The notes below the pieces were generated by a model. That model worked only from the letters and a program-made list of their open reading frames with translations, was not told the DNA's origin and ran no database searches. The translations under genes and the position numbers were made by a program. Below, piece by piece: positions 1,730 to 40,305 of a stretch of 64,000 nt of DNA. Positions within the stretch are counted from its first letter, which is position 1. The number at the start of each line of letters is the position of its first letter. This DNA is from Chthoniobacteraceae bacterium. GTDB lineage: Bacteria > Verrucomicrobiota > Verrucomicrobiia > Chthoniobacterales > Chthoniobacteraceae. The stretch is taken from assembly GCA_028293625.1 (NCBI GenBank), contig JAQGOL010000006.1, forward strand, positions 62,001 to 126,000, given 5' to 3'.

Positions 1730-3814
1730 CTATCCGGGAATCTCGCGGAGCATCTGCTCGTTGGTCGGGAACTTCTTCGCGAAGAAGAGGAGGCGCTCGA
1801 TCGCTTCCTCCGGTTTGTAACCGGCCAGGCCGCGGCGGATGACGTGGATTTTATGCAACGAGTCGGCGTTTAAGAGGAGTTCTTCGCGCCGGGTGCCGGA
1901 CTGGAAGATATCGACGGCCGGATAAACACGTTGCTCGCTGATCTTGCGATCGAGCACGAGCTCCATATTGCCGGTGCCTTTGAACTCCTGGAAGATCACG
2001 TCGTCCATGCGGCTGTTGGTTTCAATCAAGGCCGTGGCGATGATGGTCAGCGAACCGGCCTCCTCCGTATTGCGCGCGGCAGCAAAGAGCTTGCGGGGGA
2101 TCTCCAGGGCGCGGGAATCGATGCCGCCCGACATGGTGCGTCCGCCGGTGCTCGCGTTGTTGAAGGCGCGGCCGACGCGGGTGATCGAGTCGAGGAGGAT
2201 GAAGACATCCTTGCCCGATTCAACGAGCCGTTTGGCGCGTTCAATGGCGAGCTGGGCAATGCGCGTATGCGATTTGACATCCATGTCGTTTGAACTGGCC
2301 ATGATTTCCGCCGCCGGACAGCTGCGCTTGAAATCGGTGACTTCCTCGGGCCGTTCATCGACAAGGAGGATGATCAGCTTGATGTCGGGATGGTTTTTCA
2401 CCACCGAATCGGCGATGTGCTGAAGCAGGGTGGTTTTGCCGGTGCGAGGTGGTGCGACAATAAGGCCACGCTGGCCTTTTCCAATGGGCGCCATCAGATC
2501 GATGACGCGGGTCGTGTAACGTTCCGGCACCGTCTCAAGCTTGATCCACTCCAGCGGACTGATGACGGTTAATTCGTCAAAGGAAGGAAGCTGCCGCGAG
2601 TTCTCCGGATCGTCGCCGTTGACCTCCGTAAGCCGATGGAGTTGCGCTCCGCGGTTGCCTTTGCGGGTCTCGCCTTTGATCCATTGGCCATCGCGTAAAT
2701 TGTAACGGCGCACAATTTCCGGGGTGACGAAAATATCGCTTGGGTTCTGCGTGAAGCCGCGTTTGGGATCGCGGATAAAGCCGAATCCTTTGCCGGAAAT
2801 CTCCACGATTCCCTCGCCGAACCCGAGTTCTTCATCGCGCGGAACAGGCTCGGTACGAGCCGTTTCGACGCGGTCGCCACCACCGCCACCGCCGCCGCCG
2901 CCACCGCCGCCACGCTCATTGCGGTCGTGGCGATCATTGCGGTCATGCCGCTCATGGCGATCATTGCGTTCGTGACGCTCGTTGCGGTCATGCCGGTCTC
3001 CGCGATTGACACGTTCCGGGCGGGGCGCCGGCTGTTCCATGCGAGGCAAATGCATTTCGGCCGCTTCATGCGCGGTGACTGCGATGGGCGCCTGTTTGCC
3101 TTCCTGCTCAAGCTGCTTTGCCACATGCCGGGGCACATAGACCGGATACTGGCGGACTCCCGTTGGAACGGAAGGCTGCGCAGGTTGCTGGGCCGGTGCC
3201 GTTTGCACGGGAGCTGGCTGCTGCACGGGAACGGGCTGCTGCTGCACGGGAACTGGCTGCTGCTGCACGGGAGCTGGCTGCTGCTGCACAGGAGCTGGCT
3301 GCTGCTGCACAGGAACGGGTTGCTGCGCGGGTTCGTTTGCGACAGGAGCTTCTTTTCTAGGGGAAGGGCTCCATTCTTCAACGTGATGGGCCGTGTTGAG
3401 GCCCGGCGTTGAAATTGACGCGGCGTGGGAAATTGTGGGGGCGGGAGCGGCTTGAACAGGGCTCGGCGCGGGTTGCACCACGGCCTCGGGTTTTTTGCGG
3501 CGGATAACCTTGGGTTTGACCGCAGGCTCCATCGGCACCGACGCGGCAACCGGGAGCGGTTCGCTGGGGGTAGAGAGAGGCGGCTTTGAAGCGGCGCGTT
3601 TGGTCACAACCGCCTTGGGCGTGACGGTCTTTGCGCTGGATGCCTTGGAACTCACCGTGCCCGCTTTTGAAGCGGGCTCCTTGGGAGTCGGCAGCTTTGC
3701 AACGGCCACGCCGGCGGCTTTCGCGGGCTTGGCTACGGAACGTTTCGGGGTTTTTTTGTTCGGGGCGGTCTGCTCTTCGATTTCGAAGAGCGGCGGCTGG
3801 GCTGGCTCAGTCAT
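1730..3814 (-). CDS. rho: Transcription termination factor Rho with a long disordered N-terminal extension
   Basis: Hexameric RNA-dependent ATPase that ends transcription at Rho-dependent sites. The 694-residue product has the full Rho core in its second half. An OB-fold/cold-shock RNA-binding segment lies around residues 330-400 (GKGFGFIRDP). The Walker A motif PPRTGKTT is near residue 455, the Walker B region LIILLVDERPEE follows, then the Q-loop TGGRTMSGG and the R-loop GTGNMELVLDR. E. coli Rho is about 419 residues, so some 275 residues are extra. They form a low-complexity N-terminus: Lys/Ala/Pro-rich to about residue 165, PAPVQQQ heptapeptide repeats around 165-205, an Arg/Asp/His/Asn-rich run near 275-300 and then 12 consecutive glycines near 300-312. 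Such disordered insertions occur in Rho of several phyla and in one studied Bacteroides case promote phase separation. The gene is single and unlinked to prfA or rpmE here. Confidence 0.97.
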   Translation of the reverse strand: MTEPAQPPLFEIEEQTAPNKKTPKRSVAKPAKAAGVAVAKLPTPKEPASKAGTVSSKASSAKTVTPKAVVTKRAASKPPLSTPSEPLPVAASVPMEPAVKPKVIRRKKPEAVVQPAPSPVQAAPAPTISHAASISTPGLNTAHHVEEWSPSPRKEAPVANEPAQQPVPVQQQPAPVQQQPAPVQQQPVPVQQQPVPVQQPAPVQTAPAQQPAQPSVPTGVRQYPVYVPRHVAKQLEQEGKQAPIAVTAHEAAEMHLPRMEQPAPRPERVNRGDRHDRNERHERNDRHERHDRNDRHDRNERGGGGGGGGGGGGDRVETARTEPVPRDEELGFGEGIVEISGKGFGFIRDPKRGFTQNPSDIFVTPEIVRRYNLRDGQWIKGETRKGNRGAQLHRLTEVNGDDPENSRQLPSFDELTVISPLEWIKLETVPERYTTRVIDLMAPIGKGQRGLIVAPPRTGKTTLLQHIADSVVKNHPDIKLIILLVDERPEEVTDFKRSCPAAEIMASSNDMDVKSHTRIAQLAIERAKRLVESGKDVFILLDSITRVGRAFNNASTGGRTMSGGIDSRALEIPRKLFAAARNTEEAGSLTIIATALIETNSRMDDVIFQEFKGTGNMELVLDRKISEQRVYPAVDIFQSGTRREELLLNADSLHKIHVIRRGLAGYKPEEAIERLLFFAKKFPTNEQMLREIPG
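3205..3331. repeat. In-frame 21-bp tandem repeat inside rho
   Basis: A GCACGGG-type landmark recurs at 3205, 3223, 3244, 3265, 3286, 3307 and 3325. The spacings are 18, 21, 21, 21, 21 and 18 bases. On the coding (minus) strand this encodes PAPVQQQ/PVPVQQQ heptapeptides in the disordered N-terminus of Rho. All unit lengths are multiples of three, so copy-number change by slippage keeps the frame. Confidence 0.85.
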
Positions 3815-36303: not shown

Positions 36304-37887
36304 ATGACTTCCTCCGAAAAATTCAAGACCCCTCGCAAGGTTGTCGGCATTGATCTTGGCACCACTTTCAGTGCCATTGCCCATATCGACGCCTATGGCA
36401 AACCGCAGATGATTCCCAATGCCGAGAGTGAGCGGATCACCCCTTCGGTGATTCTGTTCGATGGCCAGAATGCCATCGTCGGCACCATGGCCAAACAAAA
36501 CTCGGTGGCGGAGCCCGAGAAGATTGTCGATTTTGTGAAGCGCGAAATGGGCAAGAGCAAGGCCCAGTTCCATCGCGAGTTTAATGGGAAGATTTATTCA
36601 GCCGAAGAACTCTCGGCATTGATCATCAGGAAACTCAAAAACGATGCGGAAAAGTATTTGGGTGAAGCGGTGACCGATGTGGTGATCACGGTTCCGGCGT
36701 ATTTTAACGATGCCGAACGCACGGCGACGCTTCATGCCGGACAATTGGCCGGGCTCAATGTTTTGCAGGTGATCAACGAGCCGACCGCGGCGGCGCTCGC
36801 TTACGGACTCGACAAGCTCGATTGCAATCAGACCGTCTTTGTCTTCGATCTTGGCGGCGGCACGTTCGACGTCACGATCATGCGGATCGAGAACGACCAT
36901 ATCCGCATGCTTGCAAGCAATGGCGATCATCGGCTTGGCGGTAAGGATTGGGACGATGTGATCGTCAACTGGGTGGCCGAGGAGTTCGACGCGCAGCACG
37001 GGGAAAATCCGCTGCTCGATCTTCAAAGTTATCAGGATCTTTATAACCGGGCGCTCATGGCCAAGACCCAGCTCTCCAGCCGTTCCCGCACAACGGTGGT
37101 TCAGAGTTTTAACGGCAGAAGCGTCAAACTCGATATCACCAACGTCGAGTTTGAAAAGCGTTGCCGGCATCTGCTCGAAAAATGCAAGACCATCTGCGAG
37201 ATCGTCATGCAGGAAGCCGGCCTCACCTGGCCGCAAATCGATCGCATCCTGCTCACCGGCGGCATGACCCGGATGCCGAGCGTGCGTGAAATGATCACGC
37301 AGCTAACCGATGTGCCCGCGGCGGATCACGTCAGTCCTGATGAAGCGGTGGCGCTGGGTGCTGCCATTCAGGGGATCCTGGGGCTTTTGTCCGAGGAAGA
37401 CAAAGCGGGCAAACGGGTGCTGCCGAGCGAGGTGCGCGATCAGTTTTCAACCGATAACGGTTCATTGATTAAAGTCACCAATATCACCACGCACACCCTG
37501 GGCGTCGTGCTCTGGGATGACGCCAAGGTCGAGGAATACGTTTTCCCGATGATTTTGAAGATGACCGCGATGCCTGCCGAGATGAAGAACTCGTTCGGCA
37601 CGGCCAAGGCGAACATGAAAAATGCCATCGTGCGCGTGGTGGAGGGGGAAAGCACCGTGCCTTCCGAATGCACGCCCCTCGGTATTTGTGACATTGAATT
37701 GCCGCCCTTTTTGCCGAAGGGCTCGCCGGTGGAGCTTACTTACAGCTATAATGAAAATCAGCTTCTGGAAGTGATCGTCGACGCTTACGGCCGGCAGAAT
37801 CGCGTGCAGATTGCGCGCAACACCGGGCTCTCGGAAGGCGAGATTGAAATGGCGACCGCCGATTTGCAGCTTATCACCGTCATGTGA
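36304..37887 (+). CDS. DnaK-like Hsp70 lacking the C-terminal lid
   Basis: A 527-residue Hsp70. The ATPase domain is complete ([42 protein letters not shown]) and the beta substrate-binding domain is recognisable (about 400-510, TTHTLGVVLWDD), but the protein ends there. The helical lid of about 100 residues and the acidic tail seen in DnaK are missing. The linker and pocket are divergent, so its clients may be narrow. This is the second Hsp70 of the window; it is distinct from the HscA-like protein at 7068-8894 and shares no close neighbour pattern. It lies between a GrpE-like gene and an FGE-fold gene, with no J-protein here. Confidence 0.93.
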   Translation: MTSSEKFKTPRKVVGIDLGTTFSAIAHIDAYGKPQMIPNAESERITPSVILFDGQNAIVGTMAKQNSVAEPEKIVDFVKREMGKSKAQFHREFNGKIYSAEELSALIIRKLKNDAEKYLGEAVTDVVITVPAYFNDAERTATLHAGQLAGLNVLQVINEPTAAALAYGLDKLDCNQTVFVFDLGGGTFDVTIMRIENDHIRMLASNGDHRLGGKDWDDVIVNWVAEEFDAQHGENPLLDLQSYQDLYNRALMAKTQLSSRSRTTVVQSFNGRSVKLDITNVEFEKRCRHLLEKCKTICEIVMQEAGLTWPQIDRILLTGGMTRMPSVREMITQLTDVPAADHVSPDEAVALGAAIQGILGLLSEEDKAGKRVLPSEVRDQFSTDNGSLIKVTNITTHTLGVVLWDDAKVEEYVFPMILKMTAMPAEMKNSFGTAKANMKNAIVRVVEGESTVPSECTPLGICDIELPPFLPKGSPVELTYSYNENQLLEVIVDAYGRQNRVQIARNTGLSEGEIEMATADLQLITVM

Positions 37888-37969
37888 TTTTCAGCGTCTC
37901 TTCGGCAAACGCCTGAAAAGACGACTCCTGAACCGGCGAGGCTGTCCGGTTATCTTACCCATTTTTTTC

Positions 37970-39613
37970 GTGGCACTGCCCAATCCGCTTCCAGACAACC
38001 CGCTTCGCTGGGATGGCTGGAAAAATTATAACTCGGACAATTTTTATACGCGTCTCTGTCTTTCGGAGGAGGACCACGCCACGACGCAGGCGATTGAGGA
38101 TAACTGCCGGCAATTGCTCGTCTGGTGGCAAAAGAAGCTCCCTCTAAAAAACCAGCCGAGCAATCCACTCTCGCAATTACTGCGGGGCGGCTTGGATGAA
38201 GCGCCGGTCTTTTTGGTGGAAGCGCGCACCGAGTTGCTTAATCCGGAGTCGCGTGCCCGGATCGATGCGGAGCTTCACGTCCGGGCCGTCGACAAGGGGG
38301 TGGACGATTTCAAGAGGTTCCTGGAGTACGCGCTGGTCGACAAGACCCTGAGCGCGGAATCCGAGGCGCATTTGTTAAATGCCGGCAAAGGGCTCGGCCT
38401 TTCGGTCGAGGTGATGCAGGAGGTAGTGCTTTCGGAACTCAAACGGCTTGGAGCCGTCCGCCTCGAGCGTGTGGTTCCCATCCCCGTGGTTGAACCTCCG
38501 GCGGCCGTCGCGGCGCCGATCGCACCGTCCGTTGTGGCAATGGACAAGTTTGCCGAATTTCGCCGGATGTTATCATACTCAAGGCTCGGGCTGGATGGGG
38601 ATGATATGACTGACGATCAGCGCGATGCCCTTTGCAATATCGGGGAAAGCCTCGGATTGAGCGGTGGCGAGGCGGAGGATCTCATTGATGAATATCTCGA
38701 CCAGGCGTCGGGATTGCCTCCGCTCCCTTCGACCGCGGCCGTTGCACGGACGCCTGTTGCCAAAGCGCCGGTTGCCAAGCCTGCTCCCGTTTTATCCAAA
38801 GCGATGGCGGCTCCCGCGCCGCCGCCCCGCCTCCCGGCGATCACTCCACTCATGCGGAGCGCCGAGCGGCAGCAGCATCCCAATTTCGTTAATTCGATCG
38901 GCCTTGAAATGCTCCTGGTCACGTCGGGCAGTTTCCTGATGGGGAGCAATGCCACCGACGGCGCCGCCAATGCTCAACCGGTTACTCCGGTGACGATCAG
39001 TTGCCTGTTCATGGGACGGTTTCCGATCACCAACGCCCAATATGAGGAGTTTGATCCGTCACACCGCTCATTGCGGGCGCCCTGGGCCGACGGCCAGCAT
39101 CCGGTGGTTTATGTTAACAGTCTTCAGGCCGAAAAATTCTGCGAGTGGCTCAGCCGTCACGAGGGGCGCAAATACCGGCTTCCCACGGAGGCCGAGTGGG
39201 AATATGCCGCGCGTGGATTGCAAAATCGCGTTTATCCCTGGGGCGACCGTCTTGATGCGGGCTTCTATGCAAACTTTGCCGATCGGCGCACAACGTTTGC
39301 GTGGCGCAATCCGGACATCGACGATGGTTTTGCGCAAAGCGCGCCGATTGGAAGTTATCCGCGCGGCGTGAGCGCCTTTGGAATTGAAGAATTGTCGGGC
39401 AACGTTTTTGAATGGTGCCTCGATTTTTTTGAGCCTTACAAAGGGAAGGAACGGCTCAATCCGCGCGGACCGATCCAGGGAGTAAAGCGCAATTGCCGCG
39501 GCGGCAGTTGGAAGTCGCGCGCCGGCAGCCTTTGCGGATGGGCCCGGCATTTTAATCTGCCGGAATACACCTCCAACGACGTCGGGTTCCGGGTGGTGTG
39601 CGAGTGCGGGTAA
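37970..39613 (+). CDS. FGE-sulfatase (SUMF1)-fold protein with two helical modules
   Basis: A 547-residue protein, with GTG at 37970 chosen as start (MALPNPLPDNPLRWDGW); an upstream frame that reaches back into the Hsp70 gene looks untranslated. Two related helical segments lie near residues 110-160 (DDFKRFLEYALVDKTLS) and 190-245 (DKFAEFRRMLSYSRLGLD), followed by an Ala/Pro linker. The formylglycine-generating-enzyme fold covers about 305-547 (GSFLMGSNATDG, RLPTEAEWEYAARG, LSGNVFEWCLDFF, CRGGSW, DVGFRVV). Of the two catalytic cysteines of real FGEs, only one potential equivalent (SLCGWAR) is visible, so this is probably a non-enzymatic domain. It is downstream of GrpE-like and Hsp70 genes. 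Confidence 0.85.
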   Translation: MALPNPLPDNPLRWDGWKNYNSDNFYTRLCLSEEDHATTQAIEDNCRQLLVWWQKKLPLKNQPSNPLSQLLRGGLDEAPVFLVEARTELLNPESRARIDAELHVRAVDKGVDDFKRFLEYALVDKTLSAESEAHLLNAGKGLGLSVEVMQEVVLSELKRLGAVRLERVVPIPVVEPPAAVAAPIAPSVVAMDKFAEFRRMLSYSRLGLDGDDMTDDQRDALCNIGESLGLSGGEAEDLIDEYLDQASGLPPLPSTAAVARTPVAKAPVAKPAPVLSKAMAAPAPPPRLPAITPLMRSAERQQHPNFVNSIGLEMLLVTSGSFLMGSNATDGAANAQPVTPVTISCLFMGRFPITNAQYEEFDPSHRSLRAPWADGQHPVVYVNSLQAEKFCEWLSRHEGRKYRLPTEAEWEYAARGLQNRVYPWGDRLDAGFYANFADRRTTFAWRNPDIDDGFAQSAPIGSYPRGVSAFGIEELSGNVFEWCLDFFEPYKGKERLNPRGPIQGVKRNCRGGSWKSRAGSLCGWARHFNLPEYTSNDVGFRVVCECG

Positions 39614-39643
39614 TTCAATCCCGCAGAGGCGGCGCGGCTCTGG

Positions 39644-39895
39644 TTCCAGTGCGCGTGGAAGAGGTTCCCGGGTGCAAGGAAGAGGTTCCGTGGTGTTAAT
39701 GACCAATTCCAAGCCGCGTGCTTAAAGTTCCGCGCGGTTCCTGAGTAATTCTGTCCCGTGGGCGGGAGATTCCGAAGTGCGCGGGAGCGATTCCGCACTG
39801 CAAGCAGCAGATTCCACCCTGCGAGCGGCTTATTCCAGACCGCGCGCAATGAATTCCGGAACGTCACGAACGATTTCCTTGCCGCTATCGAAAGC
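39644..39895. repeat. Degenerate tandem array, twelve units of exactly 21 bp
   Basis: The tetranucleotide TTC(C/T) recurs at 39644, 39665, 39686, 39707, 39728, 39749, 39770, 39791, 39812, 39833, 39854 and 39875: every spacing is exactly 21 bases. Read on the plus strand each unit is a heptapeptide F-(R/Q)-x-(A/V)-x-x-(R), for example FRSARER, FRTASSR, FHPASGL and FQTARNE, with one in-frame stop in the fifth unit. The frame is the same as that of the upstream FGE-fold gene, beyond its TAA. On the minus strand the array is open throughout. It is not a CRISPR: there are no conserved repeat and spacer classes. Confidence 0.85.
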
Positions 39896-39958
39896 TGCGA
39901 AGCAGCCCGAAAGGGAAACCGATGCTTTAACACTTTTCTCGAAATGAGATATCGGTAC

Positions 39959-39999
39959 AAAAAACAGCCAGCCTTTTGTGGAGGCTGGCTGCCAAAAAA
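39959..39999 (-). terminator. Intrinsic terminator of rpsU
   Basis: CAGCCAGCCT (39965-39974) pairs with AGGCTGGCTG (39982-39991), a perfect 10-bp stem with a 7-nt loop. On the minus strand it is followed by six U residues (complement of 39959-39964). A further A run at 39994-39999 makes it symmetric. It lies 17 bases beyond the rpsU stop. Confidence 0.9.
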
Positions 40000-40015
40000 T
40001 TCGCCGTGAGGTTTT

Positions 40016-40216
40016 TTAGGCGGGTGTGTTAAAGCGGAATTTCGCTTTGGCGCGCTTGGCGTTGGATTTGGCTTTCCGCTTCGACTTTTGGGTCGGAGTT
40101 TCGAAGGCGCGCAGGCGGCGGACCTCTTCCATGATTCCTTCGGTTTCGAGTTTACTCTTGAGGCGTTTAAGGGCGCGATCAATCGGCTCCCCTTTACGAA
40201 CAATGACTTCAGGCAT
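40016..40216 (-). CDS. rpsU: 30S ribosomal protein bS21
   Basis: A 66-residue basic protein. The N-terminus MPEVIVRKGEPIDRALKRLK, the central EEVRRLRAFETPTQK and the Lys/Arg-rich tail are diagnostic of bS21, a small-subunit protein near the anti-Shine-Dalgarno end of 16S rRNA. It is transcribed alone, from a candidate TTGACG-17-TAGCCT promoter to a strong terminator. Given that almost no gene here has a Shine-Dalgarno, the presence of bS21, which in Bacteroidota helps to shield the anti-SD, is notable. Confidence 0.96.
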   Translation of the reverse strand: MPEVIVRKGEPIDRALKRLKSKLETEGIMEEVRRLRAFETPTQKSKRKAKSNAKRAKAKFRFNTPA

Positions 40217-40276
40217 TTGTGTTCCCTTAATTTCTGGTTGGCGTTTTTTTAAAAATTGGTCTTGCAGCGGGTGGCA

Positions 40277-40305
40277 AGGCTAGGAGGGGATTGGCACCTC
40301 GTCAA
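40277..40305 (-). promoter_or_regulatory. Candidate promoter of rpsU
   Basis: On the minus strand TTGACG (40305-40300) and TAGCCT (40282-40277) are separated by 17 bases; the expected start leaves a leader of about 55 bases. A similar TTGACG-17-TAGCTT pair faces the other way at 40371-40399. Confidence 0.5.

Follow-up and report, generated by a model that had tools for sequence, protein, structure and literature searches.

A tandem array between an FGE gene and an S21 gene

The window analysed here is the whole stretch of 64,000 nucleotides (64 kb) from the genome of a Chthoniobacteraceae bacterium. Between a gene with an FGE-sulfatase domain and a convergent gene for ribosomal protein S21, it carries twelve tandem units of 21 bp, which we term a type A array. 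The features of this locus are:

37811..39613, plus strand: gene with an FGE-sulfatase domain (Pfam PF03781, E 5.5e-41), the upstream neighbour, outside the array
39614..39643, plus strand: left margin of the extra DNA, the 30 bp that follow the FGE stop; opens with TTC, 9 bp off the register
39644..39895, plus strand: type A array, 12 units x 21 bp, with T1 T2 C3 C4, G10 and Y11 conserved and A17 and A21 weaker
39896..39955, plus strand: right margin of the extra DNA; four relatives have a far shorter gap
39963..39993, minus strand: terminator-like hairpin behind the S21 gene (three such sites in the region, with 2.0 expected from shuffles)
40016..40216, minus strand: gene for ribosomal protein S21, the convergent neighbour, outside the array (Pfam PF01165, E 1.4e-17)

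The preliminary description of this DNA reported twelve TTC landmarks at steps of exactly 21 bp, and this is what we find: all 12 units begin with TTC, from 39644 to 39875, without a slip. TTCC is present in 11 of them (the unit at 39749 has TTCT), and G stands at unit position 10 in all 12. The span first proposed, 39614-39895, is right for 39644-39895 but not for its start, as the TTC found there precedes the first unit by 30 bp (21 + 9) and is out of register. At the other end, 39896-39916 may be a weak extra unit that has decayed (G10, C11, and A21 are present).

Neighbouring units are only about half identical. The self-match of the array at lag 21 is 0.524 (0.256 expected, z 9.3) and lag 42 also stands out (z 7.9), while the remaining lags between 10 and 49 stay at or below z 1.4. 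Periodicity arising by chance, which the preliminary description had proposed to simulate, fell well short of this when the 64-kb window was simulated 60 times with an order-3 Markov model: the longest simulated run of TTC was 3 (12 observed), and the best simulated segment score was 12.7 at lag 21 and 21.1 at any lag from 10 to 60, against 42.5 for the array. A CRISPR array was considered and rejected, as the 21-bp units have no separate repeat and spacer and each is about half identical to the next. The 64-kb window has no Rfam match at the gathering thresholds. Elsewhere in the window (3204-3331), a near-identical 21-bp repeat lies within a minus-strand open frame of 734 codons; unlike the array described here, it is probably coding.

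To compare orthologous loci, we searched 13 genomes with the FGE protein, which matched in 10 of them at 15 places, and examined eight of these places (our own and those of seven relatives). S21 adjoins the FGE gene in four relatives, as a convergent pair like that in the window; the three loci without S21 (L245, L246, and L247) were excluded from the comparison of gaps. The stop-to-stop gap between FGE and S21 is 402 bp here but 65, 81, 93, and 152 bp in G001, G005, G007, and G004, and none of these four gaps contains an array (no lag above z 2.2). In G001, which belongs to the same genus, a comparable hairpin lies almost directly 3' of the FGE stop. Because the gap is far shorter and lacks an array in the four relatives, the array in the window is extra DNA. 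Since the four orthologous loci lack it, it is not a decayed C-terminal extension of the FGE gene, as had earlier been suggested. Nor does it look like a mobile element with inverted ends: of six inverted repeats found in the regions of four arrays, none frames an array.

A dispersed family with conserved columns

The preliminary description also raised the possibility of a dispersed family, and the genome does contain three related arrays (in the window and on contigs C8 and C32) as well as arrays of the same period that are unrelated in sequence. A profile built from the C8 and C32 arrays only, with the TTCC columns excluded, gives the units in the window 5.15 bits per unit. Other phases and the reverse strand were negative, none of 2000 joint column permutations reached the score of the window, and eight other arrays scored at most 1.5 bits. 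Because this profile recognizes the array without its TTCC columns, we assign it to the dispersed family. By blastn, the C8 and C32 stretches match each other solely inside the arrays, and the array in the window matches neither at E 1e-4. A genome-wide search of the kind that had been proposed, with a model of all three type A arrays, gave no fourth array better than E 0.04; there are weaker single matches.

Across the type A arrays, G10 is present in 41 of 42 units, and the columns are heterogeneous (chi2 149 with 20 df, or 72.9 with 16 df without the TTCC columns). By comparison, 500 simulations of uniform decay, using all 21 columns, gave chi2 of at most 40.6. Columns 1-4 and 10-11 are conserved in a unit that otherwise mostly drifts.

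In 147 genomes, the type A model matched at E 0.01 in 17, including our own. We inspected one locus in each of eight of the 16 matching relatives (L089-L095 and L100; the relatives outside this inspection are G043, G047, G052, G074, G078, G106, G113, and G134), and none of the eight loci is clearly a member of type A. Seven of them are under open frames of at least 174 codons (60 bases of each were viewed). In G025, which is in the same family, L089:1459-1752 contains about fourteen near-identical 21-bp units (TTCGTCGAACACAGCCCGGAG) that differ from type A, with a frame open across them. A pattern of five TTCC copies with three mismatches matched 55 of 57 genomes, but we consider it unspecific because its backward control matched in most genomes too. 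Two exact patterns had no match in viral contigs, and the C8 array, used as a query against 72,556 plasmid records, found no similar DNA.

Coding and RNA readings of type A

Beyond the TAA of the FGE gene, a plus-frame heptad does continue in the phase of that gene, the fifth unit does contain a stop (it ends in TAA), and one frame of the minus strand is open across the whole array, all as first described. The plus frame of type A reads F-R/Q-x-A/V-S/R-D/E-x, and the minus W-N frame has no stops in two type A arrays and one stop in the third. These frames would fit a remnant of a coding heptad repeat (a coiled coil with F-x-x-A/V) or of a protein with W-N heptads encoded on the antisense strand. 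We consider such a remnant very improbable because there are stops in six of 43 plus-frame units (window, C8, and C32), always at the seventh codon, and because the substitutions show no clear bias by codon phase. Mismatches to the type A majority number 92, 104, and 117 at the three phases (p 0.22, 42 units); for the type B arrays described below, p is 0.34-0.91 in five of six pairs and 0.03 in the closest pair. Also, the units begin with TTC in 37 cases and TTT in one (42 units), although seven genes of this genome have 80 TTC and 120 TTT codons for phenylalanine. As TTT is the commoner codon in those genes, the conserved TTC is not explained by codon use. Together with the absence of the array from the four orthologous loci, these results speak against the past selection at the protein level that had been suggested. 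The array in the window is non-coding intergenic DNA.

Scarcely more probable is an array that acts at the level of RNA, for example in a transcript whose repeated GGA sites titrate a CsrA-like protein. The minus strand does offer GGAA every 21 nt. However, there is no excess of structure (folding z −0.49 for the plus strand and +0.94 for the minus strand; another z, of −2.81, includes the S21 terminator hairpin), and we found no sigma-70-like promoter within 39400-40300.

Other arrays with a period near 21 bp

We scanned an 864-kb sample of the genome for windows of any period with z of at least 7. These were sorted by the length of the covering open frame (under 320 codons or longer) and not by annotation, long arrays yield several windows, and the C32 and C8 stretches had been chosen for bearing type A arrays (the C32 array is inside the 864-kb sample and the C8 array outside it). 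The 13 windows under short frames comprise seven of period 21, one of 42, one of 20, two of 15, one of 12, and one of 24; three of the 26 further windows, in longer frames, have period 21. Outside greedily chosen open frames (82,868 bases), the top seven lags are 21, 105, 12, 63, 42, 15, and 84 (z 4.1 to 2.5), of which five are multiples of 21.

Among 15 stretches chosen for their arrays (types A, B, C, D, and others), the highest lag is 20, 21, or 42 in 14, which have further peaks at multiples of about 20-21, and 15 in the remaining one. Lags of an odd number of helical turns (10, 11, 31, and 32) never exceed z 1.5 in the 15 stretches, except for 2.2 at lag 11 in L138. The spacing thus has the form expected of helical phasing, that is, whole double turns and no odd-turn spacing. 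Unit sequences are unrelated between the array types.

At seven of the 12 array loci scanned, one or more neighbours match a Pfam family, so those arrays sit between genes. The matches include FGE, S21, MacB/FtsX, QueF, AcrB, VWA, ketoacyl synthase, IlvD, M48 peptidase, FMN oxidoreductase, and NnrS.

Three stretches have features of their own. The intergenic array at L131:12050-12310 has A-tracts (CAAAAAA) in 21-bp phase. At L111:2400-2660, AT-rich and GC-rich blocks alternate about every 20 bp (lags 20, 40, 61, and 81), with anticorrelation at lags 11 and 31. An array with a period of 15 bp (L142:17434-17666) lies near the type A array of C32.

Spacing and sequence in type B arrays

Type B is a segment that bears a 21-bp array and is present at four dispersed loci (L073, L075, L076, and L077). 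Three of the copies have their left flank in common. An intact gene of 245 amino acids without a Pfam match comes after the array in L076 (L076:5827-6561); the genome has one further fragment of this gene, kept in L075.

The type B copies diverge by up to 30% in their bases without indels: all six pairwise comparisons of the arrays, with 10-30% divergence, have 0 indels in 259-271 sites. For the left flanks, comparisons over 127-129 sites gave 3, 3, and 0 indels, with divergences of 23%, 22%, and 6%; these flanks have diverged further than the arrays. The chance of finding no indels in the arrays is 0.04, 0.005, or 3e-5 if the ratio of indels to substitutions is assumed to be 0.03, 0.05, or 0.1, given about 105 substitutions as estimated from pairwise distances. 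Drift is also uneven within the unit when its 21 positions are numbered from TTCC: at positions 19-21 and 1-9, 104 of 144 columns are invariant, as compared to 59 of 115 at the other nine positions (p 7e-4; the block was placed after inspection, and one of 1000 position permutations equals it at its best placement).

Period in the genomes of relatives

The same scan in relatives gave few such arrays under short frames. A same-family genome, scanned over 305 kb, has no period of 20-21 among its 10 short-frame windows (there are two in longer frames); in 396 kb of two same-genus genomes, none of nine has it (five in longer frames); and in 400 kb of a same-order genome, one of four does (one in longer frames). 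Contigs of G003, G002 (C71 and C66), G018 (C37), G052, and G147 were picked from earlier hits, and L198, L184, and L180 carry such hits. As none of the nine short-frame windows in the same-genus genomes has this period, any function of the arrays would be lineage-specific.

Arrays in Sporosarcina limicola

A search of 84,980 species with a two-unit pattern gave a single matching stretch, in Sporosarcina limicola. It is an intergenic array of about 17 units (TTCMRYTGTGYAAGCGACYRA) that fits the type A model, which was built without it and gives it 38 bits. We do not claim common descent with type A, because the search pattern selected the likeness. We considered a type A family that crosses phyla and do not claim it: about 21 bits per unit are fixed by the pattern, and we estimate that a chance match among the tandem arrays of 84,980 genomes is plausible. 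The type A model has no match at E 1e-4 in 300 relatives of S. limicola, and an S. limicola array, as a query against plasmids, has none either.

S. limicola nonetheless has many arrays of its own. A 385-kb sample, in which some stretches were chosen for their hits (L237-L240 extend up to places of model hits), has 37 periodic windows: 12 of period 41, 11 of period 21, six of period 40, one of period 42, and seven others. They represent 29 places, and at 25 of these a window has a period in the range 19-21 or 40-42. The periods of 20, 40, and 41 do not derive from codons. The cores fall into at least four unrelated families, RATYRGTCGCTT, GTTTATCACCG, ATATCCRTCACTT, and GCCATNACAGTT (L150:6724-7060 and L221-L240). 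In family I (RATYRGTCGCTT), all 117 distances below 130 bp between successive cores are 20, 21, 41, 42, 61, or 82 bp. When a shorter core is used, 115 of the 117 keep to these values and the other two are 22 and 86 bp. There are 302 exact matches to three family I cores in S. limicola and none in 300 relatives. The arrays resemble those described above in lying outside long open frames, in their two-turn spacing, and in the presence of several unrelated cores per genome, but they are more numerous and less decayed.

Satellite DNA or binding sites

The array in the window is extra DNA relative to four relatives, belongs to a sequence family with three loci, and is one of several arrays with a period of 20-21 bp. 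We consider two main explanations. The arrays could be functionless or selfish satellite DNA, in which slippage or unequal exchange amplified 21-bp units that spread to new intergenic sites and then decayed. Amplification would have set the unit length, and homogenization would have produced the conserved columns. Lineage-specific arrays are well explained in this way, and it is consistent with arrays that occupy the gaps between genes and differ in unit sequence, as well as with one type (B) being part of a repeated segment with common flanks. It fits less well with a pattern of columns that is unlike uniform decay, with type B copies that diverged without indels, and with a length of 20-21 bp that several unrelated motifs share. 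The other explanation, towards which we lean tentatively, is that the arrays are protein-binding sites on one face of the DNA, with a core once per two helical turns. As judged from the sequences, such putative binding is the best remaining explanation of a conserved core combined with a fixed spacing. It too faces difficulties: the cores differ between arrays, which one sequence-specific protein leaves unexplained, and the spacing is not exact everywhere, because two arrays of this genome (type C and L136) mix 20 and 21 bp and the spacing of family IV in S. limicola is mostly 19, 42, or 21. Satellite DNA is a close rival that we take to be possible and nearly as likely.

If the arrays are binding sites, then each unit would be a putative site for a DNA-binding protein that recognizes a short core per two helical turns. 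Protomers would all occupy one face of the helix and cooperate in binding along the array, so that the sequence of the spacer would be free to drift while its length would be constrained. As the arrays carry different cores, this would require a set of related proteins, or a single protein that responds to shape and phase more than to sequence. Candidate roles of a bound array are chromosome folding, partition, silencing, or the spread of an element; our first guess is chromosome folding or marking.

Short dispersed arrays in bacteria are usually dismissed, in our view, as minisatellites. Here, sequences that are unrelated share one period, which is also seen in a distant bacterium and is retained while the bases drift. 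If the spacing is selected, then there would be an undescribed cooperative DNA-binding activity to seek, and S. limicola, which is in a culture collection, offers many natural target arrays. A bolder proposal, which we think unlikely though worth stating, is that some bacteria (among them this one and the unrelated S. limicola) have genome-wide, fast-evolving intergenic arrays that conserve a spacing of about two turns and not a sequence. These would be a counterpart of phased satellites, read by a putative protein that coats DNA cooperatively and folds or marks the chromosome.

Comparison with known systems

The iterons bound by plasmid Rep proteins are direct repeats of about 17-22 bp that present one face of the DNA and have a conserved core and freer positions. 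Our arrays are similar in being direct repeats of similar length with a conserved core and freer positions, but they are many, they are chromosomal, and they have different cores. Also, none of the 11 scanned neighbours with a Pfam match (of 20; nine had no match) belongs to a replication family. We rejected a Rep iteron array for the window because the adjacent genes are FGE and S21 and not a replication initiator.

Among the matches listed by our literature searches, which used narrow combinations of terms, there was no published account of such arrays in this kind of organism, and we do not claim that none is in print. A Methylacidiphilum genome paper counts short tandem repeats, and the passages concerned do not give their periods (PMC4210602).

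The closest described elements that we met, going by passages of one paper, are BrickBuilt and MITE-PgRS (464) of Porphyromonas gingivalis (PMC4596501). According to those passages, BrickBuilt comprises arrays of 23-nt units at 19 intergenic places, together with a leader and a tail in which terminal inverted repeats lie, and MITE-PgRS has 41-nt repeats. The likeness is that these are dispersed, intergenic, non-identical short tandem units, with more than one type of element per genome. The three type A loci, like BrickBuilt, are a tandem intergenic array in several dispersed copies. The differences from BrickBuilt as described there are that no inverted repeats frame the four arrays we tested, that the unit is 20-21 bp and not 23 nt, and that flanks comparable to its leader and tail are not shared among the type A copies, whereas type B copies do share flanks.
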